DNA from: Limonium bicolor | Lineage: Eukaryota > Streptophyta > Magnoliopsida > Caryophyllales > Plumbaginaceae | Length of the DNA: 64,000 bases | Direction of reading: 5' to 3' | NCBI GenBank assembly: GCA_023374045.1 | Contig: CM041783.1 | Span: 93,593,298 to 93,657,297, forward strand | Shown: piece by piece, positions 898 to 58,495 of the stretch | How the letters are laid out: each line of letters begins with the position of its first letter | How positions within the stretch are numbered: the first letter of the stretch is position 1 | Made by a program: the position numbers and the translations under genes | Notes under the pieces: generated by a model | The model's input: the letters and a program-made list of their open reading frames with translations, nothing else | What the model was told of the DNA's origin: nothing | Databases searched by the model: none

Positions 898-3271
898 TTT
901 ATTAGGTTTCTCAGAAGAACTGAAGGGGTTGAAGCTGCTCGCAAGTTCTTCTTGGATGTACGCAACTCCCTGGATTGCACGTATCAAGTTTATGCAGCCT
1001 ATGCAATGATGGCTTTCTGTCTTGACAAAAACCCCAAGGTAATAAAAGGAACCTTTTACTTCCATCCCTTCTAATCTGTTGTTATGCTAAGTTTACTACA
1101 CTAATTTAGTTTACTTTGGTCATACAAGATATTGTGTAATTAGCATTCTATAGTTGAATTGGTGCAGAATATGGTATATCTGAACAGGGTATTTCTTCAA
1201 AAATTAATTTCTCATCTGAATAGATTTTTGCTTTTGTTGATTGGGAGAGGTATTGAGTTTCCTCCTGTAGATGAGCGTTTGTAGCTTAGTGTCTAATTTA
1301 TAAATACTCTGTTGGTGTAGGCTGCGCATGGTATCTTTGAAGCTGGTCTGAAACGATTTATGAATGAACCTGATTACATCCTTGAGTAAGAACTTGTCCA
1401 TGAACATGTATTCTGTTGCCCAATAATTACCGTATGAGCAAGTTTGCTAAGTTGTGCAGTGGATTAGAAATGATAGACTTTTCCTCTCGTTTTAGGATAA
1501 AATACCCTGCCTTGGTGGCTGTTTTGTGAGCAATCATCTTAAAACTTTCAATATCCCTGACCCCTTTCTAATGAGGTGAAATAGGTATGCAGATTTCTTG
1601 CAATGTATGAATGACGACAGAAATATCAGGGCTCTATTTGAGCGTGCATTGAGCTCACTCCCACCTGAGAATTCGGTTGAGGTTAGATATGTCTCATTTT
1701 CTAAGTTGAGTAGTTTGTACAAAATTGCATTTAGTTTCTGAATCACATACTGAGTTTTTCCTTTTGCAGGTCTGGAAAAGATTTGTTCGGTTTGAACAAA
1801 CATATGGAGATCTAGCTAGCTTGTTGAAGGTATTAGGTCCTTTAAATGTTTGTTTGATAACTTCTTGGAACTTTTGAGTGTTCAGATCTGTCATAATTCG
1901 ATGCGGTGGAATAAATAGTCTGATTGAAACTCTTAAGAATAATGTGAAGCAATAGAATTATTCGCCAAATTGCTATTTGCAAAGATGAGAGTTGAAATAA
2001 ATGTTCTCAACCAACCAAATACTACATATGTTGGTCATATATGTCATATCTTTAGAACCCCAGAAAATCAGAAAGATTATAGCTGAACCCACATTCCTTC
2101 ACAATCCTTTAGGCTTATGTAGGTTGTCTTTTAGTTAAAATGCATGATGCTCCTACTTGCTATTTTATGATTATGTGAAGACGGGTACTTATCATCTTAT
2201 GTATTTACAGTGGCTTGCTAAAACATGAACCGCAAACAGGAGAAGATTGTCAACAATGTAGCTGGTTTATTGGGTTATATTCTTGTAGCTTGACCTATCA
2301 TATTGATTAGTCACTCTCTTCATCAGATAATCATGTTAACCTTGCTCACTTGCGTGCAGATAAGGGATCTCCTGGGTTTTCTGCATCCGTCAATGTGGTC
2401 AATCCTGATGCTTCTCAGATGGTGGTTTATGATCCTGGGCAGAAACCTGGTATGCTGGTTCTCTTCATTTTGTCTTCTCTGATGAGGAGTATTATCCAAG
2501 TATGTATTGGTTGAGATTTTGATTGTCTCCTTTAAATGTTTGTTTGATAACTTCTTGGAACTTTTGAGTGGAGCAAGTTTCATGCTTCCGAATTGATATA
2601 ACATATTCATCTCATAGCAGAGATGATTGGCTGCTGTGAAGAAACAAACTAAAGTACTAGATTATCTACTAGGATTAACTACTTAGCTTAGCCAGTGCGA
2701 AGCACTATTGGTTGTTTATCTAGCATTGTTGGTTGAAGTTTATCTTGCATTGTTTAGCAGCTTCTGGCACAATACCAGGCCATGGTGCTGCTGTATCTGG
2801 TAGCAATGGAGTCGAGGGGATCCTCAAAGGAGCTCCCCCGGCATTGGTGGCATTCATAGCGAATCTGCCTTGTTGAAGGTCCGGCACCAGACGTCGATTT
2901 CGTGCTTTCCATCTGTTTGCAAAGTAATATTCCAGTGACCACTCAACCTGCAAAATTCAACCATCAATCGGGAGAGCATCCAGTGGTGGTGGTATTGGGA
3001 ATACAAATGAACACTCCGGCTCTACCAGGGGCAGACCCACACAGAGTGCTTCATCTGAAGAACAACACTAGACAGACATTCGGTCAAGAGGAAAGATCCT
3101 CACGTAAGTATGTTTGTTTGCTACTAAATTTCCTCAGTCAGAATGGAAGTGTTTTGTTTTGTTTTGTTCTTGTCAAACATCTGTTAACGGTTACCTGGGT
3201 TGTTCTTTCCAGGACAAGACGAGGATGAACCTTCCGTTCAGAGCCTGCCACTACCAAAATTCTTTAGTTAG
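898..3271 (+). pseudogene. CSTF77: Captured 3'-half fragment of CstF-77 (cleavage stimulation factor subunit 77), unit 1
   Basis: CstF-77 is the HAT-repeat scaffold of the cleavage stimulation factor in mRNA 3'-end formation. Seven exon pieces are visible with GT-AG borders: 898-1038 (starts FIRFLRRTEGVEAARKFF), 1321-1385 (AAHGIFEAGLKRFMNEP), 1585-1681 (YADFL..RNIRALFERALS), 1770-1829 (VWKRF..FEQTYGDLAS), about 2211 onward (WLAK), 2360-2449 (DASQMVVYDP), and 2761 to the stop at 3271 in two pieces (ALVAFIANLP, VLSICLQS). The exon expected between DLASLLK and WLAK is absent. This copy is broken: net 2-base loss near 2868, single-base losses near 2970, 2224 and 3103, and an early stop compared with the full protein, which continues past this point. 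Without the N-terminal HAT repeats it cannot be functional CstF-77. Confidence 0.85.
1838..2570 (+). repeat. 43-bp perfect direct repeat inside the CstF-77 fragment (1838-1880 and 2528-2570)
   Basis: The stretch beginning TCCTTTAAATGTTTG and ending CTTTTGAGTG occurs twice, once just after the donor site following DLASLLK and again in the intron before the ALVAFIANLP exon. The repeat is present in all units. It flags an internal duplication or repair event during or after capture, close to where an expected exon is missing. Confidence 0.9.
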
Positions 3272-3679
3272 TTTGACAACAGAATCGTTAAATACAACAG
3301 AATCGTTAAATACAAGCAATAGCTGTTTTGAAGGGTGCTCGGAAGTAGATGGTTGAAAGTAAAAGTTTTCAGCTATTATGTAAATCTCTTCAAAAGAGTA
3401 CTTTTTTTGTTCTACAAGAAGGGCTTACAATAATAAAAAATCCAAACGTTCTCTGAAATTATGATCTTTGCACTGCTGTAATATACTCTGTATGTTATTT
3501 TTATAGAGAGCTCCTTTACAAGGACATGTATATATATGGCAAATGAATTCAGTGGCTCTTTTGAAAGCTGGTGTGGCTGTACACATTGAATGTGTCATGT
3601 GTAATAGACAGGATTGGTTGTTAATTGTAGTTTGTGAAGCAGTATAACAAAACAAAAAATTTATTTTAAAAAAAAACAA

Positions 3680-4165
3680 GATTTATAACACGGTTGTATA
3701 TATAACCGTGTTATAAAATAATTTCGTATTATTGCGGGAAACCACTTTATAACACGGTTACATGACAAACCGTGTTATAAAACTAGACTTTATAACACGG
3801 TTTTAAGAATGAACCGTGTTATAAAACGCCTTGAATCTTCGTATGAAAAGGTTTTATAACACGGTTTGCTTAAAAAACCGTGTTGTAAAATGGGCTTTAT
3901 AACACGGTTGTCATGTAACCGTGTTGTAAAACTAGACTTTATAACACGGTTTTAAGAATGAACCGTGTTATAAACTATTTTGGCGCAAAAAAAAGTAGCG
4001 TGGTTAGCATATTTATAACACGGTTTTGGTATAAAAAACCGTGTTGTAAAACCTGTATATAACACGGTTATCAACCGTGTTGTAAAATCAAGAACAATAT
4101 ACCACCGCAGCATATAACACCCTTGATAACCGTGTTATATACAGGAAAACAACCGTGTTATAAAA
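3680..4165. repeat. CACTA 3' subterminal hairpin repeats, unit 1
   Basis: About nine inverted pairs of the motif TTATAACACGGTT and its complement AACCGTGTTATAA, with 5-17 bases between arms, fill the last 500 bp of the element. Some arms carry AACCGTGTTGTAA instead. Clustered subterminal motifs are where CACTA (En/Spm) transposases bind, so this is the likely binding array. That role is inferred from family knowledge. Confidence 0.85.
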
Positions 4166-6055
4166 CGTTTTTTCTACTAGTGCTAGGCCCCACAGTATCA
4201 AGTGGTATTCCCCACTGTAAAGTAGTGGTTCACTTTCCACTGTTTCTTCTCATGCCTTTATGCATAGGTTCGCAACGCTTAGAACTACAAATTGTAGTTA
4301 GTTTTATCGGCTTGTAAGCCACCTCGCCTCGAGCTATGCTCTGCGGGGCTGTTTATACAATTCCTACTTCTCCGTAAACCATTAAATGGTTTGGAGGTAT
4401 TGCTGGGCTCTTTGACTTGGTTGTCTCATCACGCTTCCGTACATGGAAGGCCTGAAGTATCTCGATATTAGTCGATGCCCGCTGGCAATTTAGGGTATTC
4501 CGTGTTACGTGGAAACCCTTCGGGTTCCACCCGAGTGTTCAGTTTACACCTGTGTTCTAAACACGATGTTTCGTTCAACTACTGTTGACTTTGGTACCCT
4601 TCACGGATTGCTCCAGGGTGTTACTGAGTTGCACCATTACATCTGGCTTGAACTCATGGGTATGTCTAGTTACTTACCCCACCTTGCGGTTATGTATATT
4701 TTGAAATATCCCATTTGGGTTATAACAGCTCTCGTTATTGGGTAGATAATTGGTTCTTTCTCCTTTATGTTAGGTCGTCATTCTCTTTAGTGAAGTATAC
4801 TTTGGGAATTCTATCCCGTTTATCAAACGTTAATATGTTCATTCTAGGCATTCGCCGTACCATCTACACTGGGTATTCATTCCAGTTATAAGGTATTTCC
4901 TCTTTGATTTCTAAGACATACTTAATGTCTTTTCTCATTACTCTATGCTTCTCGCACTTCTTAACGTTATATCCTTAGGTCCGTCACCTTATTGGGTTCT
5001 TGACTCGTTTAGCTTGGTAAGCTTCTCTGGGTTCTTCGATCATTCGAGGTGTCCAACGGTGTTGGTTTGAATTGGCTCTTTCGTCCGTAGTATGGAGTGG
5101 GCTACTTCCCGTGTTCCGTACTCTACTTGTATACATACATGGAGTATCTTATTGATACGTTACCACTTACCCGACTAACTCATAATTGGTCTGTCAGGCC
5201 CGCAAGCTCCTTCGGAGTGCGGTCGTTCCATGTCTCGTTTAGTACACCGTAGTGTCGGTCACTCGCCTAAGTGAAGTATTCTGTTGCCAACTCCTCTTAC
5301 ATCGTCCTATGATAACTTACCGTGATTCTCTGGTTTGGGTTTAAAAAAATTTGGGGGTTTTTGGAAAATTCTATGTTTGAAAGAAAATTTGGGTTTTGAA
5401 GGTAAATTCTTCATGGCATTTCAATGCCGGTTGCTTCTTACCAGGTCTAGCTTCTCGCTGACCGGTATGTTCTTCATACAGTGATCAGGCCCTTAGGCCT
5501 TTTCAAGGTTTTGTCTCATAGTTCTTATGGTTGTCTTGCCATATTGGCTTCTCTCGCCATTTTGGTACTTACTAAGTACTGGTCGCTTGTCAAAGCTCTT
5601 CTTATTAGTCCCGCTATTATTGCACTTGCCGTGGCAAGTGCGCGGTACTGGCGGTTTTTGGGTTAACTCATACCGGTCACGGTATTGTTCACATTGTATT
5701 TGGTAGCCCTGTTGGCTCTTCCTTGATCCCTTAGTTGGATAACTGCTCCTTGGAGCTGCTTCTCATTCCTCTTGACATGACTGTCATTCATTTAGGTGCT
5801 CCTCCACTCTCGGAGTTCCTTAATTACTTTAATTCTATGCTTTACCTCGTTGCTCGTTCCCACGTCTTTACTGTGGTTACCGAGGTTTAACTTATTTAGG
5901 TACTACTTCTGTAGTCCTATTCGGGTATATCCCGTAGTTATGCTTGTAGCTGTCTAAGTTGTATCAGTTAAGTATTGCAATCTCTTTGGGTGTGGCAGGG
6001 TGGGTGCATCTACCTTTGACTAGATTCTTAGTAAATGGGTATACCGTTGGTGGTA

Positions 6056-6493: not shown

Positions 6494-6569
6494 CCCTTAG
6501 CCCTAAGTCTCTAATTCCTAACTTGGTATTTCCTAAGCTCGGTATTTCCAGTCATCAGAGCGATACTTC

Positions 6570-6581
6570 GCTCTAATACCA
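6570..6581 (-). other. Primer binding site, initiator-Met tRNA type, unit 1
   Basis: The minus strand reads TGGTATTAGAGC four bases after the LTR end. This is one base off TGGTATCAGAGC, complementary to the 3' end of plant initiator methionine tRNA, the usual primer of many plant LTR retrotransposons. It fixes the element's orientation as minus. Confidence 0.85.
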
Positions 6582-7207
6582 TTTTTGTAACACCCCAACT
6601 GCTAATCTCGTCATTACCTCTTAAACTGTCACAATTACCAATAATCTCGCAACGGAACTCTAAATACAACAGAGGGTGATACAACGCCGTTAGCCACCCA
6701 TAAGGCAAACCAGGCCTATCTCACATACAGTAACGGTCTGATGGACTGGAACAACCGAATACATAATACAAATACAATACTCAAATCATTTCTCTACTAT
6801 ACCGAGTCTACAATAAATGGATGCCGACAACATATTCGGTCTTACACTTCCTTCAATACATAAGTAATTAAAACAAACTACCCATGCAACCCACCGACCC
6901 CGTCCTACTCTCGAACGGTAACATCTTCGGTGTACCTGTAAAATAAAAACATCGCCCCTAGGGGCTCAGCTTAACGCTGCATATGAAATTCGCATACCCC
7001 GAGCGCTAACCGGGGTACGCCGACTACTTTTGTCGGATATACATGGAGTTCATTAGTCAAACAACATGTATCATAGCAATACATTATATATGTGTATTAC
7101 TCAAGGAATCTACATCCAATCACGGAACACAATTCCTAACTAACATAACAAGGCTGTTAGTTGTATCTGCTTACTCTTAGGCCTTGAGGGTTATACCTCA
7201 CCTTGCC

Positions 7208-7395
7208 TTGTTTACTTATTCGATATCTCACCCGCTCTCTCGGGTGACTTATTCATGTACACACCCATTCTATTGGGCTACTCATTTTAAACTCACCCAT
7301 TCTCTCGGGTTACTTATACACATTACCTCACCCACACTCTTGGGTCATTTATACTCATTATCTCACCCACACTCTTGGGTTAATTATACTCAAGC
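7208..7395. repeat. Tandem mini-hairpins with CACCC...GGGT arms in LTR 1
   Basis: Five consecutive units of roughly 35-45 bases each carry CTCACCC or CACCC, a 6-8 base pyrimidine-rich loop such as GCTCTCT or ACACTCTT, then GGGT. They form short stems of 4-6 bp. Equivalent blocks occur in LTRs 2, 3 and 4 (about 22849-23030, 38490-38670 and 54119-54300). Confidence 0.7.
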
Positions 7396-8628
7396 TCTTG
7401 TAGATTCTCGAGACACTACAGGTCTCCTACGACACGCTTGTTACTCTTAATACATACTTAGGCCAAAACTCATGGCTCTCAAGCATAGTCTTACTTCCCC
7501 GGTTTCGACCCTACTCTGGGTCTAGCATGGTGGGAAGGTTCAACTAGCTCACGGAACTCTCTCTTAGTTCCTAACTCTTTTGCTTAGGCCCGACTGCTCT
7601 CGGACTACTTACATTCCCATACACTCCTCTCTCGGAGTTATAGTAATATTATGTATATTAGTCTAGAAGCATCACTCTCGATGTTTCTAATGACCTTGGG
7701 AACATTACTTAAGTTTGGTTAATCTTAGGTTTTAAGAGTTACCCGTACATTTACTTTACTCATACTTTCGGTTATTTATATATATCAGGTAAAATCCTTA
7801 TATAGGAGGTCGACCATGTCTCAAGGGAGTTACTAATCCCTTAGGTCTCTTTTACCTTCTTCACTAGTTCACATCTTCGAACTATCTTAAATCCTCTTGA
7901 GGGAGGTTCACTTATCTTTCCACTCTCATTTGTTTCGTGGATTGTTTCAATGTGGTTTTCTAACCATTATCGGGTATTTACTCAACCCGTACTTCTCCTC
8001 ACATCCTAGGGAGTTCATATGTTTGCGTTATCGTTATACTTTAACGGATAGTTTGTGTGTTTGCACGTTTTCGTTATCATAAGCGTCGACCCGATCTATG
8101 GGTCTCTAGCCAAACGTTACTCACTACGAGTCGGTCCATTCACTACGTTAGACCACACCGGCATACAAGTATGTTAGCTCATTCAACATACAACAAGGCA
8201 TACATAATCAAACAAGGGATTATTTTCATGCGTTAATCTTGATTAAGCCGGCACACAAACACACAAATCAACGTAACTCGGTTAGCACGCGGAGTATGAG
8301 AAAATCATACCTTTCACCGGGGTTTTTACTTTTACCGTGTCATCTCACCATGCTCAGGTCACACACGACTCTCTGATAATGTTCCAAACATTATTGTTAA
8401 TACTAAGATCATACGGTACATAATAAAATGCTACTTCCGTACTTACCCCGTTATCCCGATATCTCGGTTTTACTTTTATTAATTTGAGTTCTTAATTCAC
8501 ACTAAATTCTAACACCTTCTAAGGCCTTTATGTGTGACCAAACGAGGCCTTAACATCTTATAACATCATTACCAAACCATTCCCTAGCTTAAACCCCATT
8601 TAAAACACTTATTTTTACATTTCTGGTC

Positions 8629-8883
8629 TGGTCCGGGACTTCATACGGGACTTAAGTCCCGGACCAGGCATGGTTCAAACTCTCGGCCTTTATTTTCACC
8701 TGGTTCGGGACTTTATGCAGGAGTCAGGTCCCGGACCATAATGCAGGCAGATTCTCGGTTTAGAAATTGTAGGTGGTCCGGGACTTGGGCATGGACTTAA
8801 GTCCCGGACCAAGCAAGCAGAGAACTCTCGGGGGTAAAATCAGGGGTGGTCCGGGACTTGGTCCAGGACCTAAGTCCCGGACC
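8629..8883. repeat. Quartet of GGTCCGGGACTT inverted repeats in LTR 1
   Basis: Four successive imperfect palindromes lie at 8629-8666, 8701-8738, 8774-8811 and 8848-8883. Each has a left arm TGGTCCGGGACTT (or a close variant) and a right arm AAGTCCCGGACCA. The arms are up to 13 bp and enclose about 12 bases; spacers are 35-37 bases, two of them with the word CTCGG. GC content is far above the surrounding AT-rich LTR. Confidence 0.9.
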
Positions 8884-10299
8884 CTACTACAGATTTTGCA
8901 AATTTAGCATTTTCCAACTCTGCTCAAGGTCTTCTCTTAGTCCCTTAATTAATCTATCTTCCCCACCTTAAATCCACATGTTTAAGCACTTAATTACCCT
9001 TCTAAATCACCTTAATCTAAGCACCAAGTACACTCACCATTCTAGTTAATTCCACTTAGATTCTTTTACACTTTCAAACTAGTTTTTCTCTTGTTTTCTA
9101 TCAGATTTGTAACAGATTTTGGTTTCTTCTTTAAACCATTCAAACCTCACTCACTAATGTCATTCCTAGCACCAAAATGACATTATTTTCCTCTCCAGTT
9201 CTACTCCAAGCACCCTTCTCTTCACTTCCAAATTCCAAGTGATTTACCACTCACTTTCATCTTCTAAACATACCTAGTTTATCCTAGGTTTCACACTCTG
9301 AACCACCCTTGGTTTCCAAGTAAAATTTGACAGCACTTGCTTGCTTTACTAAGCATTTTCACCACACTAAACATGTTCACAAACACCTCTTCTCCCCTGT
9401 TTGGTTTAGACATCAAAACCATATCAAAATCCCATTTATTCACCATATAAACTAGCTTAGTTCCCAAGCTTATTTCTCACACTTAAGAAACATTAAAACA
9501 GCTTCATTCATCATTAAATTGTAGTATCTCAACTACACTAATACAAGATCATCCACACCACTTACAAAAATCTGTTTGCAAGAAAATAAACCAACTCAAG
9601 GTGAGTTCATTACCTTGTAAATTTTCGGTTTTCTCTTCCCTTCTTCCTCTTCTCTTGTTCACTCTTTCTTTTCTTGTTTCCACACCACCCAAGGGAGTAT
9701 AGATTGCTAGCTACAATCTCATTCCCCCATTCACACATAACAACCTAATTAATTCACATTCTCCACACAAAAACTAGTATTTTAAGGAGCTAGTTTTTGA
9801 AGCTTAGCTTAGGTATTACCTTAGAAAGTCCAAGAGGATAGCTTGACAATCAATTGAAGAGGTTTCCAACACCCCACAAAAACACACGGTTTCGACTGAA
9901 ATGAGGGAAATTTCCAACGTGAGGGAAAAATCTCACAAATGGCAAGGATGAACTTGAAATGGCCTAAACTTAAGCTTATTATCACCTTAAAGCATCAAGG
10001 AGAAGAAGAAGGGTTGGAATCAACTCTTCAAGCTTCAAAAGCTCCAACGTCAATGGAATTGAAGGTGAAGGAATCAAGTTTTAATTGGGTGGAAACCGAA
10101 GCTCTCACCGAGAGGAGTTCAACGGTACAAATTTCGTGTGATTTGGTGGAGGAATGAGCAAGATAGAGGTGAGGCAAGGAGAGGGTTGGTGCTGTTGTTG
10201 TCGCGAGTACAGAGGAAGAAGAAGAAGTTGCAAGGCTCTGGAGCAAATCGTGAAATGAGAAGGAGAAGGTGAGAGGTATGTATTTTATTTTACTTTTTA

Positions 10300-10306
10300 C
10301 TTTATA
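10300..10306 (-). promoter_or_regulatory. Possible TATA box of the LTR promoter, unit 1
   Basis: The minus strand reads TATAAAG within an AT-rich tract (10281-10325), about 610 bases inside the LTR from its U3 end, followed by pyrimidine-rich sequence suitable for a transcription start. Similar tracts lie in the other LTRs. This is position and motif only; it could be chance in AT-rich DNA. Confidence 0.25.
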
Positions 10307-10915
10307 CTATTTGCTTTATTTACTCATTTGTCCCCATATTACTTAATAGCTAGCAAACTATTAATGGGTGCATCCTTATTAATTAAAACCGGCCCACATT
10401 AATTAATAGCCTGGGTCGTTTTTCGTCTTTTCGAATTAAACGCGTCTCGTCTCCCGGTTTCGTCACTATTCACTTACCGGGTCCGTTTTCCGGAATTTTC
10501 TCGTTTAATTAATTCTAATGGTTATTAAGCTTCCATTAATACTTAATTATAGTTATTTAATAAACTATAATTTTTACGGGTCCATTTGACCACTTAAAGT
10601 CACGTTTTCGGGTTTCCTCGAAAAACGTGCTTTAAAACTCCGTTAGCGTTTTAATCCATTATTTGGATCCGTTTTCTTCGAAGTCATTCCCATACACTAA
10701 TTAGGCCTAACTAAGCCTTAGGAATCCATCTCGGACCCTTACGAGATCATATATCTCTTATTTAAATTTAATGCGCATTTTAGCGTTTTTCGCGTTTAAC
10801 GCATTTTCTCTTTTCTTTTGGTTTTATTCTTCTACCAATACTCTCTAGGCCCCATTAGGCCCTTAATAATCATATTAGAGTAATTTAATCACCATTTTAG
10901 GTTCGGGGTATTAAA

Positions 10916-10930
10916 ATCTACCCCCCTTAA
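10916..10930 (-). other. Polypurine tract next to LTR 1
   Basis: The minus strand reads TTAAGGGGGGTAGAT directly before the LTR start. Equivalent tracts sit at 26556-26570 and 42180-42194. Just upstream on the minus strand is a readable tail, AKFLKGGRF then stop, resembling the last codons of gypsy pol polyproteins that overlap the polypurine tract. This is the only coding trace of the parent element I could find. Confidence 0.8.
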
Positions 10931-13573: not shown

Positions 13574-13589
13574 CACTAGTAGAAAAAAC

Positions 13590-13836
13590 ATTATATAACA
13601 CGCATTTTATAACACGGTTATAGTGTAAAGGTGTTATAAAATATTTTACAACACGGTTGTACAATATAACCGTGTTATATTATGTGAGAGGAAATATCTA
13701 CTCGGAAAAATAGGGTTTTTAACACGGTTATGTTCTACCCGTGTTATAAGAGTATTAAATATAACACGGTTCTATCTACCCGTGTTATAAACTTCATTTT
13801 ATAACACCGTTGTACAATATAACCGTGTTATATTGT
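13590..13836. repeat. CACTA 5' subterminal hairpin repeats, unit 1/2
   Basis: Four to five pairs of the TTATAACACGGTT motif and its complement lie within 250 bases of the left terminus, with some arms decayed to ACCCGTGTTATAA or AAGGTGTTATAAAA. The 5' set is shorter than the 3' set, an asymmetry common in CACTA elements. Equivalent sets lie at 29237-29482 and 44860-45106. Confidence 0.85.
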
Positions 13837-14389
13837 CTTTTAACTTTCCACCAAATACTACCTTCTCCCTCAACGCGCCAGTCCCGTATCTTTTGCCCGC
13901 CTGTTTCTCTCCCGACCCTTCCAAATTCGATATCGCCGTCCCACCTACTGCATCGTCGCCATCGCCGCCACTAACATCACCTCCGACTTCGCTTCCACCG
14001 CCACCACCAACATTTGGTTTCTCATCCAGCCAACATTTGGATTCTCGCTCGCTTCTGGCATCCATCAGTAAATTGATTTGTAGTTAAGTGATATAACCGA
14101 GTTCTAGCGAGCTTTCCTCTTAAGAATTGAGCGGGGAATTTGTTTTCATTAGCAAGATTCGGCAGGTTATTCCGATCTATTCAGGCCTTAGAATCACGCG
14201 TAGAGCTGATATTAGGAGAAAAATTCCTTCGACTCAGATGTTGTTTTTATCTGATTTCCCAGCATCTAGGTTTTGGTTGTTGAACTTCTCGTGCCGTCAC
14301 ACCCCCATTTCACAACGCTAGTTGGACCAGCGTTTTATGGTTATCTACTTTGGGAAGCTAGGGGAAAGAGAGTTTCTAGTCTGAATCGT
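13837..14389 (+). other. Leader-like sequence between CACTA 5' repeats and captured gene 1
   Basis: GC-richer than its surroundings at 13860-14060, with proline/serine-rich frames on the plus strand and glycine-rich frames on the minus strand that reflect a CCGCC-type composition. It could be 5' UTR or promoter of captured gene 1, or a third captured fragment. No protein family is recognised. Confidence 0.45.
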
Positions 14390-15593
14390 ATGTCTTCTGA
14401 ATCAGAACCAGTCTCGTTGGTGAGGTTGTGGAGGACACATTTTCTGAGTCTCAGGGACGAATCACTAACCCCGACCGAGCCCTCTGCTCTACCAGTCATC
14501 CGCGATCTCATCCTTCCTCATCGCCATTCACTTGTAGCTGCTGCCACCTCTCTCCCGGTATGAGGTGAAGTTTCTTTTCTTGACTTTTCCTCTTTTCTTG
14601 ATGTATTGGCTGCATAAGTTTCTAGATGGTTGGACTGTATTTATCTGCTTTATTCAAACTTTGTGTAGGTTTCCACTGATCTGATATATCTACTGGGTGT
14701 GGCCGCTTCTTGTACTGCTTTCGCTTGTGAAGAGAACGGTGACGCAGAGATCTTCTATGTTTTTCCCGGCGTTTGTTATCTGGTACTAATTATCACGAAG
14801 GAACTTGAACATAAATCTTTATCCTCGTTCTCATTTGCGGTGTTCTTGTTGCAGATCCATGACGTGGCTTGTTCTGTCGCTCTCCCACACAGCTCACCTG
14901 CTTGGTCTCAGTTGCTCGACGCTTTCTCAAATTTGGTGGCGTTTTTTCTCAATTCAAGGAGAATTAATATCGTGTTGGGCTCAGCTGGTACGGTTGAAGC
15001 AGTGCTAAGTTGTCTGGATATTACGAGGTTGCTATATAATTCCCCTATACAGTTTGAGACCAACAAAAGAGTTTGATTCAACTTCCTTGCTTTTGCATCA
15101 GAGAACCGTAGCTAACTCAAGCAAAATGCAATTGCATCAGGTGTTTCATTGGTTCGAATGACCACAGATTATCACTTTCGGACAATGTCCAGTTACTCAA
15201 CTTTCTTCTCCATGTTGTTAATTGCTGCCATGCTCAGCTACATATATCCGTTTATCGTCAATGTGATGGTGAAACTTCTGAAGAAAGGGCACTAAACTTT
15301 CCCAAGTCAAGTTGCTTATGGAAAATACAAGCTGTGGCATTCTCCATGATTGGTGCAGCGTTCTCAAGGGACGGGTCCTTGCTGGGTGATGCCTGTGGAG
15401 ATTTGGGCATTTAACACTTGAGGTCATTGCCTTCAAATTGTTCATGTTTTCTAAACTGAAAATATCATCTGACTATGATCCTTCAATTTGGCAAGCAAAT
15501 GATGCTGGTTCTTATTCTGAATATAGTTCTTAGGAAGGTGATGGATCCATTAGCAAAAAAGGCCATTCTTTTAGAAGATGCTGTTATGCCCCG
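14390..15593 (+). pseudogene. Captured 5' fragment of an unidentified host gene (possible ARM/HEAT-type protein), unit 1
   Basis: A start codon at 14390 opens an exon beginning MSSESEPVSLVRLWRTHF. Later exons show IHDVACSVALPHSSPAWSQL (after an acceptor near 14852), LSLSDNVQLLNFLLHVVNCC (after an acceptor near 15166), LWKIQAVAFSMIGAAFSRDG, and MDPLAKKAILLEDAVMPR ending at a donor at 15593. Leucine-rich helical repeats suggest an alpha-solenoid protein, but I cannot name the gene. Unit 1 is broken: a 2-base loss near 14544 shifts exon 1, and a 5-base insertion near 15383 shifts the fourth exon. The fragment stops where intronic DNA leads into CstF-77 exons in the same orientation. Confidence 0.6.
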
Positions 15594-16548
15594 GTATCCT
15601 TCTCATTCTCAAGTTATGCCTTTTTTTATTATTTTAATGATTTATGTGCCTATTTGCTTATACTAGAAAAAAGATACACTTGAATCATAAAGGAAGTAAT
15701 TACACTCTTGATGAATTGGTGCAATGACTTTAGGATAAAAGTTTAGACTTTGTCACTATATGAGATAATTAGCTTGATATGCCATGGAAATATATGATTT
15801 TATTATTAAACATTCTTCCAAGCATAGTGATATTTTCTAGGTGTCATCCAGATAGTTTTGTAGTTACTTGCTTCATTTGTTGTGATATGAATTGGTTTTG
15901 TGATGAGGTAGAATGAATTGCTTTGACTAAGGCTCCTCTACTCAGGGCACCCATCTAGCAATTCTACCAAATTATCAGATGTTTAAATAACATGTAGAAT
16001 TAAACTAGTGTTGCGGTTTCTGGACCTTGTAATTTGTTCGCCTTGTATTATGGTTTCTTGGTGTTTTATTCTTACTTCATTTCCTAATCTGTATTGTATC
16101 GAGGTTTGGAGTTTTTGTGTTTCTCGGTTCTGAATCTTTCTACTGAAATATGTGTGAAGTCTAACGTGCATTCCCCCCATCTCGGTATAATTTGTAAGAC
16201 TGATAGTATTCCAAGTGGATATCAATTTCATATACTCCTTGTTCCCAGGAATAATTTACCAGTATACTAGAGAGTTTATCAGCAATTTATATGCTAAAGA
16301 AATGATTATTTGAATGAAAAGCATAATTGTTCTCATTCTGAAGTATACTATAGATTGAAGTTTGGGCAGATTCTGTTGGTTGAGCACCTCGTGTCATGCC
16401 TTTTTGTCCTTTCATCAGAACATCATGCTTTGAGTTATGTTACACAATCGTGGACATTTTATCTTGATAACTACGGTTTCCATTGTGTTGACTGGCTTGC
16501 CTTAGGCAAATCGTTGAAGACTGTTCTCCTTTCTTTTCTGTTTTGCAG

Positions 16549-18926
16549 TTTATTAGGTTTCTCAGAAGAACTGAAGGGGTTGAAGCTGCTCGCAAGTTCT
16601 TCTTGGATGTACGCAACTCCCGGATTGCACGTATCAAGTTTATGCAGCCTATGCAATGATGGCTTTCTGTCTTGACAAAAACCCCAAGGTAATAAAAGGA
16701 ACCTTTTACTTCCATCCCTTCTAATCTGTTGTTATGCTAAGTTTACTACACTAATTTAGTTTACTTTGGTCATACAAGATATTGTGTAATTAGCATTCTA
16801 TAGTTGAATTGGTGCAGAATATGGTATATCTGAACAGGGTATTTCTTCAAAAATTAATTTCTCATCTGAATAGATTTTTGCTTTTGTTGATTGGGAGAGG
16901 TATTGAGTTTCCTCCTGTAGATGAGCGTTTGTAGCTTAGTGTCTAATTTATAAATACTTGTTGGTGTAGGCTGCGCATGGTATCTTTGAAGCTGGTCTGA
17001 AACGATTTATGAATGAACCTGATTACATCCTTGAGTAAGAACTTGTCCATGAACATGTATTCTGTTGCCCAATAATTACCGTATGAGCAAGTTTGCTAAG
17101 TTGTGCAGTGGATTAGAAATGATAGACTTTTCCTCTCGTTTTAGGATAAAATACCCTGCCTTGGTGGCTGTTTTGTGAGCAATCATCTTAAAACTTTCAA
17201 TATCCCTGACCCCTTTCTAATGAGGTGAAATAGGTATGCAGATTTCTTGCAATGTATGAATGACGACAGAAATATCAGGGCTCTATTTGAGCGTGCATTG
17301 AGCTCACTCCCACTGAGAATTCGGTTGAGGTTAGATATGTCTCATTTTCTAAGTTGAGTAGTTTGTACAAAATTGCATTTAGTTTCTGAATCACATACTG
17401 AGTTTTTCCTTTTGCAGGTCTGGAAAAGATTTGTTCGGTTTGAACAAACATATGGAGATCTAGCTAGCTTGTTGAAGGTATTAGGTCCTTTAAATGTTTG
17501 TTTGATAACTTCTTGGAACTTTTGAGTGTTCAGATCTGTCATAATTCGATGCGGTGGAATAAATAGTCTGATTGAAACTCTTAAGAATAATGTGAAGCAA
17601 TAGAATTATTCGCCAAATTGCTATTTGCAAAGATGAGAGTTGAAATAAATGTTCTCAACCAACCAAATACTACATATGTTGGTCATATATGTCATATCTT
17701 TAGAACCCCAGAAAATCAGAAAGATTATAGCTGAACCCACATTCCTTCACAATCCTTTAGGCTTATGTAGCTTGTCTTTTAGTTAAAATGCATGATGCTC
17801 CTACTTGCTATTTTATGATTATGTGAAGACGGGTACTTATCATCTTATGTATTTACAGTGGCTTGCTAAAAACATGAACCGCAAACAGGAGAAGATTGTC
17901 AACAATGCAGCTGGTTTATTGGGTTATATTCTTGTAGCTTGACCTATCATATTGATTAGTCACTCTCTTCATCAGATAATCATGTTAACCTTGCTCACTT
18001 GCGTGCAGATAAGGGATCTCCTGGGTTTTCTGCATCCGTCAATGTGGTCAATCCTGATGCTTCTCAGATGGTGGTTTATGATCCTGGGCAGAAACCTGGT
18101 ATGCTGGTTCTCTTCATTTTGTCTTCTCTGATGAGGAGTATTATCCAAGTATGTATTGGTTGAGATTTTGATTGTCTCCTTTAAATGTTTGTTTGATAAC
18201 TTCTTGGAACTTTTGAGTGGAGCAAGTTTCATGCTTCCGAATTGATATAACATATTCATCTCATAGCAGAGATGATTGGCTGCTGTGAAGAAACAAACTA
18301 AAGTACTAGATTATCTACTAGGATTAACTACTTAGCTTAGCCAGTGCGAAGCACTATTGGTTGTTTATCTAGCATTGTTGGTTGAAGTTTATCTTGCATT
18401 GTTTAGCAGCTTCTGGCACAATACCAGGCCATGGTGCTGCTGTATCTGGTAGCAATGGAGTCGAGGGGATCCTCAAAGGAGCTCCCCCGGCATTGGTGGC
18501 ATTCATAGCGAATCTGCCTGCTGTTGAAGGTCCGGCACCAGACGTCGATTTCGTGCTTTCCATCTGTTTGCAAAGTAATATTCCAGTGACCACTCAACCT
18601 GTAAAATTCAACCATCAATCGGGGAGAGCATCCAGTGGTGGTGGTATTGGGAATACAAATGAACACTCCGGCTCTACCAGGGGCAGACCCACACAGAGTG
18701 CTTCATCTGGAAGAACAACACTAGACAAAAATTCGGTCAAGAGGAAAGATCCTCACGGTAAGTATGTTGTGTTTGCTACTAAATTTCCTCAGTCAGAATG
18801 GAAGTGTTTTGTTTTGTTTTGTTCTTGTCAAACATCTGTTAACGGTTACCTGGGTTGTTCTTTCCAGGACAAGACGAGGATGAACCTTCCGTTCAGAGCC
18901 TGCCACTACCAAAATTCTTTAGTTAG
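16549..18926 (+). pseudogene. CSTF77: Captured CstF-77 fragment, unit 2
   Basis: Exon pieces: 16549 onward (FIRFLRRTEG), about 16970 (AAHGIFEAGLKRF), about 17235 (YADFL), about 17419 (VWKRF), 17859 (WLAKNMNRKQEKIVNNAAG), about 18009 (DASQMVVYDP), 18410-18757 and 18868-18926. The last two are intact only in this unit: they join across a GT-AG intron to give SVKRKDPHGQDEDEPSVQS, then a stop at 18924. Earlier exons are broken by single-base losses near 16620 (after RNS) and near 17312 (in SLPPEN). So unit 2 is the best copy of the C-terminal exons and a poor copy of the N-terminal ones. Confidence 0.85.
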
Positions 18927-19332
18927 TTTGACAACAGAATCGTTAAATACAACAGAATCGTTAAATACAAGCAATAGCTGTTTTGAAGGGTGCTCGGAAG
19001 TAGATGGTTGAAAGTAAAAGTTTTCAGCTATTATGTAAATCTCTTCAAAAGAGTACTTTTTTTGTTCTACAAGAAGGGCTTACAATAATAAAAAATCCAA
19101 ACGTTCTCTGAAATTATGATCTTTGCACTGCTGTAATATACTCTGTATGTTATTTTTATAGAGAGCTCCTTTACAAGGACATGTATATATATGGCAAATG
19201 AATTCAGTGGCTCTTTTGAAAGCTGGTGTGGCTGTACACATTGAATGTGTCATGTGTAATAGACAGGATTGGTTGTTAATTGTAGTTTGTGAAGCAGTAT
19301 AACAAAACAAAAAAATTTAAAAAAAAAACAAG

Positions 19333-19815
19333 ATTTATAACACGGTTGTATATATAACCGTGTTATAAAATAATTTCGTATTATTGCGGGAAACCACTTT
19401 ATAACACGGTTACATGACAAACCGTGTTATAAAACTAGATTTATAACACGGTTTTAAGAATGAACCGTGTTATAAAACGCCTTGAATCTTCGTATGAAAA
19501 GGTTTTATAACACGGTTTGCTTAAAAAACCGTGTTGTAAAATGGGCTTTATAACACGGTTGTCATGTAACCGTGTTGTAAAACTAGACTTTATAACACGG
19601 TTTTAAGAATGAACCGTGTTATAAACTATTTTGGCGAAAAAAAAGTAGCGTGGTTAGCATATTTATAACACGGTTTTGGTATAAAAAACCGTGTTGTAAA
19701 CCTGTATATAACACGGTTATCAACCGTGTTGTAAAATCAAGAACAATATACCACCGCAGCATATAACACCCTTGATAACCGTGTTATATACAGGAAAACA
19801 ACCGTGTTATAAAAC
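19333..19815. repeat. CACTA 3' subterminal hairpin repeats, unit 2
   Basis: Same set of about nine AACACGGTT/AACCGTGTT inverted pairs as at 3680-4165, with single-base losses near 19440 and 19700. Further copies lie at 34978-35460 (unit 3) and 50596-51080 (unit 4). Confidence 0.85.
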
Positions 19816-19831
19816 GTTTTTTCTACTAGTG

Positions 19832-22227: not shown

Positions 22228-25200
22228 TGTAACACCCCAACTGCTAATCTCGTCATTACCTCTTAAACTGTCACAATTACCAATAATCTCGCAACGGAAC
22301 TCTAAATACAACAGAGGGTGATACAACGCCGTTAGCCACCCATAAGGCAAACCAGGCCTATCTCACATACAGTAACGGTCTGATGGACTGGAACAACCGA
22401 ATACATAATACAAATACAATACTCAAATCATTTCTCTACTATACCGAGTCTACAATAAATGGATGCCGACAACATATTCGGTCTTACACTTCCTTCAATA
22501 CATAAGTAATTAAAACAAACTACCCATGCAACCCACCGACCCCGTCCTACTCTCGAACGGTAACATCTTCGGTGTACCTGTAAAATAAAAACATCGCCCC
22601 TAGGGGCTCAGCTTAACGCTGCATATGAAATTCGCATACCCCGAGCGCTAACCGGGGTACGCCGACTACTTTTGTCGGATATACATGGAGTTCATTAGTC
22701 AAATAACATGTATCATAGCAATACATTATATATGTGTATTACTCAAGGAATCTACATCCAATCACGGAACACAATTCCTAACTAACATAACAAGGCTGTT
22801 AGTTGTATCTGCTTACTTTAGGCCTTGAGGGTTATACCTCACCTTGCCTTGTTTACTTATTCGATATCTCACCCGCTCTCTCGGGTGACTTATTCATGTA
22901 CACACCCATTCTATTGGGCTACTCATTTTAAACTCACCCATTCTCTCGGGTTACTTATACACATTACCTCACCCACACTCTTGGGTCATTTATACTCATT
23001 ATCTCACCCACACTCTTGGGTTAATTATACTCAAGCTCTTGTAGATTCTCGAGACACTACAGGTCTCCTACGACACGCTTGTTACTCTTAATACATACTT
23101 AGGCCAAAACTCATGGCTCTCAAGCATAGTCTTACTTCCCCGGTTTCGACCCTACTCTGGGTCTAGCATGGTGGGAAGGTTCAACTAGCTCACGGAACTC
23201 TCTCTTAGTTCCTAACTCTTTGCTTAGGCCCGACTGCTCTCGGACTACTTACATTCCCATACACTCCTCTCTCGGAGTTATAGTAATAATGTATATTAGT
23301 CTAGAAGCATCACTCTCGATGTTTCTAATGACCTTGGGAACATTACTTAAGTTTGGTTAATCTTAGGTTTTAAGAGTTACCCGTACATTTACTTTACTCA
23401 TACTTTCGGTTATTTATATATATCAGGTAAAATCCTTATATAGGAGGTCGACCATGTCTCAAGGGAGTTACTAATCCCTTAGGTCTCTTTACCTTCTTCA
23501 CTAGTTCACATCTTCGAACTATCTTAAATCCTCTTGAGAGGAGGTTCACTTATCTTTCCACTCTCATTTGTTTCGTGGATTGTTTCAATGTGGTTTTCTA
23601 ACCATTATCGGGTATTTACTCAACCCGTACTTCTCCTCACATCCTAGGGAGTTCATATGTTTGGTTATCGTTATACTTTAACGGATAGTTTGTGTGTTTG
23701 CACGTTTTCGTTATCATAAGCGTCGACCCGATCTATGGGTCTCTAGCCAAACGTTACTCACTACGAGTCGGTCCATTCACTACGTTAGACCACACCGGCA
23801 TACAAGTATGTTAGCTCATTCAACATACAACAAGGCATACATAATCAAACAAGGGATTATTTTCATGCGTTAATCTTGATTAAGCCGGCACACAAACACA
23901 CAAATCAACGTAACTCGGTTAGCACGCGGAGTATGAGAAAATCATACCTTTCACCGGGGTTTTTACTTTTACCGTGTCATCTCACCATGCTCAGGTCACA
24001 CACGACTCTCTGATAATGTTCCAAACATTATTGTTAATACTAAGATCATACGGTACATAATAAAATGCTACTTCCGTACTTACCCCGTTATCCCGATATC
24101 TCGGTTTTACTTTTATTAATTTGAGTTCTTAATTCACACTCAATTCTAACACCTTCTAAGGCCTTTACGTGTGACCAAACGAGGCCTTAACATCTTATAA
24201 CATCATTACCAAACCATTCCCTAGCTTAAACCCCATTTAAAACACTTATTTTTACATTTCTGGTCTGGTCCGGGACTTTATACGGGACTTAAGTCCCGGA
24301 CCAGGCATGGTTCAAACTCTCGACCTTTATTTTCACCTGGTTCGGGACTTTATGCAGGAGTCAGGTCCCGGACCATAATGCAGGCAGATTCTCGGTTTAG
24401 AAATTGTAGGTGGTCCGGGACTTGGGCATGGACTTAAGTCCCGGACCAAGCAAGCAGAGAACTCTCGGGGGTAAAATCAGGGGTGGTCCGGGACTTGGTC
24501 CAGGACCTAAGTCCCGGACCCTACTACAGATTTTGCAAATTTAGCATTTTCCAACTCTGCTCAAGGTCTTCTCTTAGTCCCTTAATTAATCTATCTTCCC
24601 CACCTTAAATCCACATGTTTAAGCACTTAATTACCCTTCTAAATCACCTTAATCTAAGCACCAAGTACACTCACCATTCTAGTTAATTCCACTTAGATTC
24701 TTTTACACTTTCAAACTAGTTTTTCTCTTGTTTTCTATCAGATTTGTAACAGATTTTGGTTTCTTCTTTAAACCATTCAAACCTCACTCACTAATGTCAT
24801 TCCTAGCACCAAAATGACATTATTTTCCTCTCCAGTTCTACTCCAAGCACCCTTCTCTTCCACTTCCAAATTCCAAGTGATTTACCACTCACTTTCATCT
24901 TCTAAACATACCTAGTTTATCCTAGGTTTCACACTCTGAACCACCCTTGGTTTCCAAGTAAAATTTGACAGCACTTGCTTGCTTTACTAAGCATTTTCAC
25001 CACACTAAACATGTTCACAAACACCTCTTCTCCCCTGTTTGGTTTAGACATCAAAACCATATCAAAATCCCATTTATTCACCATATAAACTAGCTTAGTT
25101 CCCAAGCTTATTTCTCACACTTAAGAAACATTAAAACAGCTTCATTCATCATTAAATTGTAGTATCTCAACTACACTAATACAAGATCATCCACACCACT

Positions 25201-26555
25201 TACAAAAATCTGTTTTGCAAGAAAATAAACCAACTCAAGGTGAGTTCATTACCTTGTAAATTTTCGGTTTTCTCTTCCCTTCTTCCTCTTCTCTTGTTCA
25301 CTCTTTCTTTTCTTGTTTCCACACCACCCAAGGGAGTATAGATTGCTAGCTACAATCTCATTCCCCCATTCACACATAACAACCTAATTAATTCACATTC
25401 TCCACACAAAAACTAGTATTTTAAGGAGCTAGTTTTTGAAGCTTAGCTTAGGTATTACCTTAGAAAGTCCAAGAGGATAGCTTGACAATCAATTGAAGAG
25501 GTTTCCAACACCCCACAAAAACACACGGTTTCGACTGAAATGAGGGAAATTTCCAACGTGAGGGAAAAATCTCACAAATGGCAAGGATGAACTTGAAATG
25601 GCCTAAACTTAAGCTTATTATCACCTTAAAGCATCAAGGAGAAGAAGAAGGGTTGGAATCAACTCTTCAAGCTTCAAAAGCTCCAACGTCAATGGAATTG
25701 AAGGTGAAGGAATCAAGTTTTAATTGGGTGGAAACCGAAGCTCTCACCGAGAGGAGTTCAACGGTACAAATTTCGTGTGATTTGGTGGAGGAATGAGCAA
25801 GATAGAGGTGAGGCAAGGAGAGGGTTGGTGCTGTTGTTGTCGCGAGTACAGAGGAAGAAGAAGAAGTTGCAAGGCTCTGGAGCAAATCGTGAAATGAGAA
25901 GGAGAAGGTGAGAGGTATGTATTTTATTTTACTTTTTACTTTATACTATTTGCTTTATTTACTCATTTGTCCCCATATTACTTAATAGCTAGCAAACTAT
26001 TAATGGGTGCATCCTTATTAATTAAAACCGGCCCACATTAATTAATAGCCTGGGTCGTTTTTCGTCTTTTCGAATTAAACGCGTCTCGTCTCCCGGTTTC
26101 GTCACTATTCACTTACCGGGTCCGTTTTCCGGAATTTTCTCGTTTAATTAATTCTAATGGTTATTAAGCTTCCATTAATACTTAATTATAGTTATTTAAT
26201 AAACTATAATTTTTACGGGTCCATTTGACCACTTAAAGTCACGTTTTCGGGTTTCCTCGAAAAACGTGCTTTAAAACTCCGTTAGCGTTTTAATCCATTA
26301 TTTGGATCCATTTTCTTCGAAAGTCATTCCCGTACACTAATTAGGCCTAACTAAGCCTTAGGAATCCATCTCGGACCCTTACGAGATCATATATCTCTTA
26401 TTTAAATTTAATGCGCATTTTAGCGTTTTTCGCGTTTAACGCATTTTCTCTTTTCTTTTGGTTTTATTCTTCTACCAATACTCTCTAGGCCCCATTAGGC
26501 CCTTAATAATCATATTAGAGTAATTTAATCACCATTTTAGGTTCGGGGTATTAAA
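22228..26555 (-). mobile_element. LTR 2 of the retrotransposon (4328 bp)
   Basis: Shared LTR between two internal regions: primer binding site at 22212-22223, polypurine tract at 26556-26570. Ends in TTAAA like the other three. Small differences from LTR 1 include TTTATACGGG for TTCATACGGG in the first long hairpin and a lost CG dinucleotide near 23660 (TTTGGTTATCG for TTTGCGTTATCG). Confidence 0.88.
24266..24520. repeat. Quartet of GGTCCGGGACTT inverted repeats in LTR 2
   Basis: Same four palindromes as at 8629-8883, with one substitution in the first loop. Confidence 0.9.
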
Positions 26556-29220: not shown

Positions 29221-30036
29221 CACTAGTAGAAAAAACATTATATAACACGCATTTTATAACACGGTTATAGTGTAAAGGTGTTATAAAATATTTTACAACA
29301 CGGTTGTACAATATAACCGTGTTATATTATGTGAGAGGAAATATCTACTCGGAAAAATAGGGTTTTTAACACGGTTATGTTCTACCCGTGTTATAAGAGT
29401 ATTAAATATAACACGGTTCTATCTACCCGTGTTATAAACTTCATTTTATAACACCGTTGTACAATATAACCGTGTTATATTGTCTTTTAACTTTCCACCA
29501 AATACTACCTTCTCCCTCAACGCGCCAGTCCCGTATCTTTTGCCCGCCTGTTTCTCTCCCGACCCTTCCAAATTCGATATCGCCGTCCCACCTACTGCAT
29601 CGTCGCCATCGCCGCCACTAACATCACCTCCGACTTCGCTTCCACCGCCACCACCAACATTTGGTTTCTCATCCAGCCAACATTTGGATTCTCGCTCGCT
29701 TCTGGCATCCATCAGTAAATTGATTTGTAGTTAAGTGATATAACCGAGTTCTAGCGAGCTTTCCTCTTAAGAATTGAGCGGGGAATTTGTTTTCATTAGC
29801 AAGATTCGGCAGGTTATTCCGATCTATTCAGGCCTTAGAATCACGCGTAGAGCTGATATTAGGAGAAAAATTCCTTCGACTCAGATGTTGTTTTTATCTG
29901 ATTTCCCAGCATCTAGGTTTTGGTTGTTGAACTTCTCGTGCCGTCACACCCCCATTTCACAACGCTAGTTGGACCAGCGTTTTATGGTTATCTACTTTGG
30001 GAAGCTAGGGGAAAGAGAGTTTCTAGTCTGAATCGT

Positions 30037-31234
30037 ATGTCTTCTGAATCAGAACCAGTCTCGTTGGTGAGGTTGTGGAGGACACATTTTCTGAGTCTCA
30101 GGGACGAATCACTAACCCCGACCGAGCCCTCTGCTCTACCAGTCATCCGCGATCTCATCCTTCCTCATCGCCATTCACTTGTAGCTGCTGCCACTCATCT
30201 CTCCCGGTATGAGGTGAAGTTTCTTCTTGCTTTTCCTCTTTTCTTGATGTATTGGCTGCATAAGTTTCTAGATGGTTGGACTGTATTTATCTGCTTTATT
30301 CAAACTTTGTGTAGGTTTCCACTGATCTGATATATCTACTGGGTGTGGCCGCTTCTTGTACTGCTTTCGCTTGTGAAGAGAACGGTGACGCAGAGATCTT
30401 CTATGTTTTTCCCGGCGTTTGTTATCTGGTACTAATTATCACGAAGGAACTTGAACATAAATCTTTATCCTCGTTCTCATTTGCGGTGTTCTTGTTGCAG
30501 ATCCATGACGTGGCTTGTTCTGTCGCTCTCCCACACAGCTCACCTGCTTGGTCTCAGTTGCTCGACGCTTTCTCAAATTTGGTGGCGTTTTTTCTCAATT
30601 CAAGGAGAATTAATATCGTGTTGGGCTCAGCTGGTACGGTTGAAGCAGTGCTAAGTTGTCTGGATATTACGAGGTTGCTATATAATTCCCCTATACAGTT
30701 TGAGACCAACAAAAGAGTTTGATTCAACTTCCTTGCTTTTGCATCAGAGAACCGTAGCTAACTCAAGCAAAATGCAATTGCATCAGGTGTTTCATTGGTT
30801 CGAATGACCACAGATTATCACTTTCGGACAATGTCCAGTTACTCAACTTTCTTCTCCATGTTGTTAATTGCTGCCATGCTCAGCTACATATATCCGTTTA
30901 TCGTCAATGTGATGGTGAAACTTCTGAAGAAAGGGCACTAAACTTTCCCAAGTCAAGTTGCTTATGGAAAATACAAGCTGTGGCATTCTCCATGATTGGT
31001 GCAGCGTTCTCAAGGGACGGGTCCTTGCTGCCTGTGGAGATTTGGCATTTAACACTTGAGGTCATTGCCTTCAAATTGTTCATGTTTTTCTAAACTGAAA
31101 AATATCATCTGACTATGATCCTTCAATTTGGCAAGCAAATGATGCTGGTTCTTATTCTGAATATAGTTTCTTAGGAAGGTGATGGATCCATTAGCAAAAA
31201 AGGCCATTCTTTTAGAAGATGCTGTTATGCCCCG
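30037..31234 (+). pseudogene. Captured 5' fragment of the unidentified possible ARM/HEAT-type gene, unit 2
   Basis: This copy and the next have the best-preserved reading frames. Exon 1 is 30037-30213 (59 codons, ending HSLVAAATHLSRYE at a GT donor). The next exon begins after an AG near 30315 (VSTDLIYLLGVAASCTAFAC). Further exons follow: IHDVACSVALPHSSPAWSQL, LSLSDNVQLLNFLLHVVNCC running to LPVEIWHLTLEV, and MDPLAKKAILLEDAVMPR up to the donor at 31234. Exon 4 is uninterrupted here, unlike unit 1. The gene is truncated after about five exons. Confidence 0.6.
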
Positions 31235-58170: not shown

Positions 58171-58495
58171 ACGGTCGCATCTCCTTGCCCCTACCGCAAT
58201 CTTCAGCAGGTACTCCCTCATGTCTCATAGAGTCTGTCTTTGTTTGCACTTGAATCAGTGAAATGTGTTTTATCACTTAGCATGCCTATTACTCTAGCGC
58301 TACTGTCCACGTCATCTATCCGCACCCAACCCGCCTAAATCGTCGCCCTTAATCTCGCCCTACCCTAACGTCGCCACATTTATCTCACATGACACACGCC
58401 TATTCTATAACTTCCAGCCTTTATATCTATCACCCGTCCACTCCATCTCTCTCACTTCCACTCCCTTTCCACCCAAGCATCCTTCAAATTTCCAA
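58171..58495 (+). other. Spacer between copia pol and env-like ORF
   Basis: 325 bases without an open frame in continuity with pol. It is pyrimidine-rich towards the next start codon. A splice acceptor for a subgenomic env-like mRNA could lie here (for example the CAG at 58205-58207), but nothing in the sequence proves it. Confidence 0.4.

Follow-up and report, generated by a model that had tools for sequence, protein, structure and literature searches.

A CACTA element that joins HEATR6 and CstF-77 gene pieces within a tandem LTR-retrotransposon array of Limonium bicolor

Pack-CACTA and other Pack-TYPE elements, as described in PMC8903248 and PMC13317346, have CACTA-type ends and carry host gene DNA drawn from several loci, and the re-mobilisation of neighbouring insertions as one is proposed there as an acquisition route. 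The element described here shares these properties. Unlike the Arabidopsis elements, it has the ends CACTAGTAG (compared with CACTACAA) and other captured genes, and it differs from the Pack-CACTA elements of those accounts in having arms from separable subfamilies, a segment of its own family at the seam between the gene pieces, and multiplication inside an LTR array. Tgm-Express1 of soybean, a 5.7-kb CACTA element for which chimeric splicing has been shown, likewise carries intron-containing pieces of several genes unrelated to one another (PMC1947982). According to the same source it holds five gene pieces and has inserted into an expressed gene, within an intron, whereas here two identified genes lie in repeat DNA and are known from sequence. 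Tandem LTR-retrotransposon arrays are also known in plants, with one reported case nested in a DNA transposon (PMC11899658). As in those arrays, LTRs and internal regions alternate here, LTRs are shared and there is one flanking duplication; unlike in them, each of five internal regions holds a gene-carrying CACTA element. The 28 tandems selected in that report have coding domains, whereas no Pfam domain was found in the single internal ORF scanned here. The element belongs to the known Pack-CACTA class, and the tandem LTR array around it is likewise of a known type; the structure is ordinary in kind, though documented with unusual completeness.

The window, a stretch of 64,000 nucleotides of the Limonium bicolor genome, contains the element at 13574-19831 (copy e1). 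The best explanation of its structure, to which we assign a probability of roughly 0.8, is a Pack-CACTA fused from two family members, altered by template-switch repair, dispersed, and then multiplied inside an LTR array. Its parts are as follows.

13574..19831, + strand: CACTA (Pack-CACTA-type) element, copy e1, 6,258 bp, with terminal inverted repeat (TIR) CACTAGTAGAAAAAAC and target site duplication (TSD) CTA
13574..13999, + strand: left arm with TATAACACGGTT-type subterminal repeats (class A)
14298..15884, + strand: HEATR6 piece, comprising 92 bp upstream of the ATG and coding exons 1-5 with introns
14390..14564, + strand: HEATR6 exon 1 with the ATG, 2 bp shorter than in copies e2 and e3
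15526..15593, + strand: HEATR6 exon 5, with the donor site after CCCCG
15885..16159, + strand: 275-bp third segment between the HEATR6 and CstF-77 pieces, which occurs in other elements of the family
16160..19183, + strand: CstF-77 piece (3' half), with eight exon pieces, the introns and part of the 3' flank
16549..16688, + strand: first of the captured CstF-77 exons, with 1 bp less than its counterparts in e2 and e3
17486..17528, + strand: 43-bp filler at a CstF-77 exon deletion, an exact copy of 18177-18219
19182..19831, + strand: right arm (class B)

Elements of the CACTA superfamily make target site duplications of 3 bp, and subterminal repeats are expected in both of their arms. The left end of e1 is CACTAGTAGAAAAAAC and the right end is its exact reverse complement, giving a perfect 16-bp TIR that starts with CACTA. 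The trinucleotide CTA flanks the element on both sides, and TATAACACGGTT-type repeats are present in both arms, with tandem copies in the right one. Three related LTR-element copies without the insertion (on C5, C2 and C8; 401 bases each) were compared with the joined flanks. They run uninterrupted through the site, with 177/218, 189/217 and 177/218 aligned bases matching; the C2 site reads CTCCCTAGGCC with a single CTA, and the other two have ATA at that position. These uninterrupted sites are direct evidence of CACTA insertion and bear out the account, in the preliminary description, of perfect termini with a CTA duplication. Related termini, whose absence from the rest of the genome had been named as grounds for giving up that account, exist: a 33-letter left-end pattern has 128 matches genome-wide (0 for a control pattern read backwards), and other elements have their own TSDs. 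A generic end test with CACTACAAGAAA and ≤2 mismatches gave a weak signal, with 15 matches against a mean of 9.3 expected and 3 of 100 shuffles reaching 15.

Fifteen ORFs of at least 85 aa overlap e1, the longest being 212 aa, and no window position is among the best 150 scored of 14,356 genome candidates for transposase. The element is probably a non-autonomous CACTA element, with no transposase seen inside it. No autonomous element with these ends emerged when the lists were compared by eye: among the best 150 of 14,356 transposase candidates, the nearest lies 284 kb from any of the 100 left ends listed out of 128. The genome carries a very heavy load of CACTA-type transposase, as judged from these first-look candidates, and many of the 150 scored share a bit score of 318.3 or 319.3 and have long open frames.

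Positions 1-57822 of the window repeat with a 15.6-kb period, and e1 is one of five CACTA copies carried by a 15.6-kb LTR retrotransposon that is itself repeated in tandem, with shared LTRs. We considered the CACTA copies in the window as independent insertions and rejected this reading, as identical flanks, an identical TSD and the 15.6-kb period indicate that one insertion was multiplied. The splice-junction coordinates 31234 and 32193, which the preliminary description assigned to e1, fall in the next array copy.

1..4182, + strand: array copy e0, 3' part
29221..35477, + strand: array copy e2, which holds 31234 and 32193
44844..51095, + strand: array copy e3
6586..10915, - strand: LTR B of the host retrotransposon, 4.33 kb
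22228..26555, - strand: LTR C
37872..42179, - strand: LTR D
53497..57822, - strand: LTR E, the right end of the array
6570..6581, - strand: primer-binding-site-like stretch TGGTATTAGAGC, adjoining an LTR and, we assume, resembling initiator tRNA
10921..10928, - strand: polypurine stretch AAGGGGGG, before an LTR
57823..58170, + strand: right half of the putative Ty1-copia RNase H frame that is split by the array, GTAG standing at either edge of the array

The array extends from C8 93559721 to window position 57822, with the 4.33-kb repeat at both ends and recurring inside. Its outer flanks encode ...SWSSKKQNFV and VALSTAEAEYVSA..., which from their motifs we take to be the separated parts of a single Ty1-copia RNase H frame; Pfam has no match for the right half. 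The duplication GTAG lies on both sides (4 bp, or 5 bp with one mismatch). From the terminal LTRs, the adjoining primer-binding-site-like and polypurine sites, the split copia frame and GTAG on both sides, it follows that a single LTR-retrotransposon insertion grew into an LTR-sharing array of five internal regions, each with a CACTA copy. Terminal LTRs, shared internal LTRs and a single TSD, which define a tandem LTR retrotransposon, are thus all present. Five LTRs were read, and a sixth, left of the window between the first and second units, is placed there from the spacing. The flanks of the left-hand CACTA copy are CTA and ATA.

The five LTRs differ by 0.16-0.90%, the outermost pair most. 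At the substitution rate adopted in PMC2612701 (1.3e-8 per site per year), 0.90% corresponds very roughly to 0.35 million years. Private substitutions number 22 in LTR A, 15 in D (clustered), 11 in E, and 3 each in B and C, and three sites have other patterns. Crossover hybrids visible as blocks in the inner LTRs were sought and discarded, as 54 of the 57 variable sites are private to one LTR. The array copies are 99% alike, and e1 and e2 differ by 12 mismatches and 18 gap events; because gap events exceed substitutions, some frame breaks may be assembly errors. Elsewhere, same-strand pairs of the LTR family lie 9.28-9.45 kb apart at C4:198.24, C7:282.19 and C8:15.77 Mb (among the best 40 of 9,930 candidates), where 9.37-9.39 kb is the unit spacing expected without the CACTA element. 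This pair spacing suggests that other arrays of the family, without CACTA, form elsewhere.

Large non-coding LTR elements (LARDs) combine long LTRs with a non-coding internal region; the host element has 4.33-kb LTRs and no Pfam domain in the one internal ORF scanned. The first array unit contains a separate LTR element (C8:93.5750-93.5828 Mb; 2106-9901 of stretch L028) with terminal repeats of at least 1,015 bp that are 99% alike, the second of which continues to the edge of the stretch analysed. The unique flank right of the array encodes a 611-aa ORF at 58298-60133 with a weak Transposase_32 match (5.1e-10, below the curated cut-off) and an integrase ORF at 61366-62328 (rve, 1.3e-19). The window has no Rfam family at gathering score and no tRNA.

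Within the element, the preliminary description had recognised the first exons of one gene, start codon included. These are exons 1-5 with the ATG, encoding about 268 residues, and the gene can now be named. A region search returned eight plant proteins, called HEAT repeat-containing protein 6, DUF4042 or hypothetical, and the alignment with Eutrema P0110 begins at query residue 14 with 33% identity; because of these matches, we identify the first captured gene as plant HEATR6. Pfam gave 0 matches for it and PDB nothing meaningful; three PDB matches with E of 0.05-0.31 were taken as chance. Homology to the donor covers element positions 725 to about 2311, its start lying 92 bp ahead of the ATG. 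The gene's own promoter, which had been thought to come with it, is mostly absent, given that just these 92 bp upstream match.

Outside CACTA elements, the HEATR6 5' exons occur in the 2.92-Gb genome only at C1:38.980-38.982 Mb (- strand) and C1:38.998-38.999 Mb (+ strand), with 43 of 43 candidates scored. DUF4042 occurs only at C1:38.967 Mb (-) and C1:39.009 Mb (+), with 16 of 16 scored. As DUF4042 sits 10-13 kb downstream of both opposite-strand sets of 5' exons, the two loci evidently form an inverted gene pair. The members of the pair (L021 and L022, C1:38.97-39.01 Mb) are 96% alike over 3.4 kb, and both have frame breaks in the assembly. Compared with the donors, the HEATR6 piece of e2 shows a divergence of 3.5-4.3% in its exons and 3.5-3.9% in its introns; exon differences from L021 number 3, 8 and 17 at codon positions 1, 2 and 3.

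The second gene is CstF-77, as seen from Pfam (Suf, 8.9e-40), PDB (CstF-77) and plant CstF-77 proteins, the top protein match in a length-limited search being Bienertia at 63%. In element coordinates, DNA derived from the locus spans about 2587-5340 and, past a deletion, 5378-5610, with exons from about 2976. The earlier account of a 3' half of CstF-77 with its introns stands as to gene, half and introns, with the correction that one exon is deleted at 17486-17528 and that the last one keeps only its first 47 bp or so. A second deletion lies at about 18913-18951. CstF-77 N-terminal exons (profile 49-89 and 141-188) were found at C2:59.38, C6:259.35 and C7:118.37 Mb, and one more (profile 271-316) was seen at the C2 and C6 loci, in a search that scored 81 of its 94 candidates. 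Over a compared stretch of 3.1 kb, these three loci agree at 99.6-99.7%, and the CstF-77-like gene in three near-identical copies (L017, L018 and L019) is 99% alike over about 9.8 kb. The possibility that these are themselves CACTA elements was dismissed, since they have no CACTA ends in 9.9 kb and retain CstF-77 N-terminal and last exons, as expected of gene loci. Exon sequence absent from the element is present there. The divergence of the CstF-77 piece from these donors is 0.8-1.3% for exons and 1.7-1.9% for introns.

Both pieces therefore retain introns and have donors with exons elsewhere in the genome, HEATR6 on C1 and CstF-77-like on C2, C6 and C7, as in Pack-CACTA elements. The proposal of DNA-level acquisition of two unrelated genes in the same orientation, to be checked by finding the parents and comparing introns, is upheld: HEATR6 precedes CstF-77, both on the + strand, and the introns differ from those of the donors to the extents given above.

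The preliminary description had the exons of the first gene followed by CstF-77; the two pieces are not joined directly, as the 275-bp segment intervenes. It has 33 matches in the genome (33 of 33 candidates scored). Ten are in HEATR6-carrying elements, and six outside them are full or near-full in length at 92-96% identity. Four, at 83-87% identity, cover positions 1-175 and are each accompanied by a second match, to 221-276, at a distance of 1.2-3.8 kb; one covers 164-276, and eight are short. Outside the HEATR6-carrying elements, a same-strand left end of the same family lies near the segment at four loci: at 0.68-0.70 kb for C1:505.26 (96%), C1:183.75 (87%) and C4:231.95 Mb (83%), and at 5.2 kb for C3:385.85 Mb. 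Near the segment at C2:252.10 and C6:8.54 Mb, the 100 left ends listed out of 128, which reach C6:135 Mb, include no exact one.

The family search scored the best 40 of 1,443 DNA candidates, so that closer partners of e1 may exist. The succession of HEATR6 piece, third segment and start of CstF-77 (element 1-2689) is found in at least six places: C8 (the array), C2, C6, C1, C3 and contig C2441, of which C8 and C2 alone keep the rest of the CstF-77 piece. As in Pack-CACTA families, there are dispersed relatives with TSDs of their own: six other elements have matching duplications, namely L009 (on C2) TGG, L011 TTT, L012 TGG, L013 TCA, L014 TTT and L026 TTA. Duplications do not match in L016 (TTT/TTA), which is 99% identical to L014, or in L024, for which the right end located gives TAC/TTG. 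The fetched stretches include only the left end of L010, only the right ends of L015, L020 and L023, and no CACTA end for L017-L019, L021, L022 and L025. In the dispersed composite L009 (C2:462.685-462.692 Mb), some 0.69 kb of the CstF-77 piece is duplicated in tandem. In the C4 CACTA relatives, L014 carries at 3216-3569 (- strand) a coiled-coil-like ORF, perhaps another captured host gene, which we assume to resemble U-box kinases.

The arms of e1 differ in their affinities. Its left arm (262 bp) is 100% identical to that of L011, with the right arm at 82.5%, and its right arm is 98.4% identical to that of L026, with the left arm at 78.5%; the same combination of A left and B right recurs in L009, L014 and L016. 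Judged by these identities, the two arms derive from different, separable subfamilies. A fusion of two neighbouring elements would fit both the hybrid arms and the family segment at the seam. Most probably, two family members had inserted close together and were mobilised as one, the first contributing left arm A and the HEATR6 5' piece, and the second, its own left end lost, contributing right arm B together with the third segment and the CstF-77 piece. Internal deletions with fillers would then have come from template switching during the repair of breaks; the 43-bp filler and a 14-bp duplication at the deletion junction of L010 and L012 look like template switching. The chain would have moved to at least six places with transposase supplied in trans, most of CstF-77 being lost in four of them. 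One copy would have inserted into an LTR retrotransposon on C8, itself within a Ty1-copia gene, and growth of the LTR-sharing array would have multiplied this insertion to five copies. The anatomy, the donors, the empty sites, the hybrid arms, the filler and the array structure are shown by the sequences; this order of events, the fusion and the transposase in trans we infer from them. The segment matches at C1:183.75 and C4:231.95 Mb count against this explanation, being partial (1-175) and just 83-87% identical, as do the two loci with no listed left end nearby and the failure to find an autonomous element among the candidates compared. Two CstF-77 scraps in L010-L013 (e1 2587-2689 and 3498-3603) speak against a simple succession in which elements fused, CstF-77 was captured and arms were exchanged.

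A less probable account, which nevertheless deserves consideration, is stepwise gap repair, in which one CACTA element gained its pieces separately as breaks were filled from ectopic donors, with no fusion of elements. The exact filler, with its source 0.69 kb downstream, and the junction duplication in L010 and L012 both speak for it, and the unequal divergence of HEATR6 (3.5-4.3%) and CstF-77 (0.8-1.9%) is expected for separate acquisitions; gap repair alone, however, leaves unexplained the hybrid arms and a seam segment that other family elements have near their left ends. That unequal divergence also weighs against a single capture of two adjacent genes, as does the third segment separating the pieces. 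The shared head-to-tail direction of the pieces would suit such an event. Adjacency of the parents, which had been named as the observation that would reduce the structure to one capture, is contradicted in this assembly because the donors are on different chromosomes, and we give this alternative almost no credence.

That the array is an assembly artefact with just one real copy is improbable: the near-identity of the copies (99%) and the abundance of small indels would suit an artefact, but each LTR copy has private substitutions, the first unit has an extra LTR element of its own, and the unit spacing minus CACTA recurs at other places of the LTR family. A functional HEATR6-CstF-77 chimeric gene producing a fusion protein is very improbable. 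It would draw support from e2 and e3, in which HEATR6 exons 1-5 are open. If HEATR6 exon 5 is joined, at assumed splice sites, to the leading CstF-77 exon of the element, however, the product is out of frame and meets a stop inside that CstF-77 exon in e1, e2 and e3; the HEATR6 frame is lost within exon 1 in e1 and right after the ATG in L009, and CstF-77 exons are shifted, deleted or cut. Most likely, the element has no useful coding capacity.

Any effect on CstF-77 would instead act via homologous RNA. Among exonic 21-mers of e2, 564 of 738 match the CstF-77 loci perfectly and 355 of 706 the HEATR6 loci, and because such exact 21-mers are common to element and donors, small-RNA action would be possible in principle. 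There is a slight chance that array growth has made the two-gene Pack-CACTA a gene-fragment satellite, whose RNA could yield small RNAs against HEATR6 and CstF-77; if so, array copy number could tune mRNA 3'-end processing.

Donors on different chromosomes, partial relatives, arms of mixed subfamily, a seam segment and an exact filler co-occur in one genome, so that fusion and repair models of capture can be compared within one family. The array represents a second, passive route for multiplying captured gene pieces, which are carried along within a tandem LTR retrotransposon.
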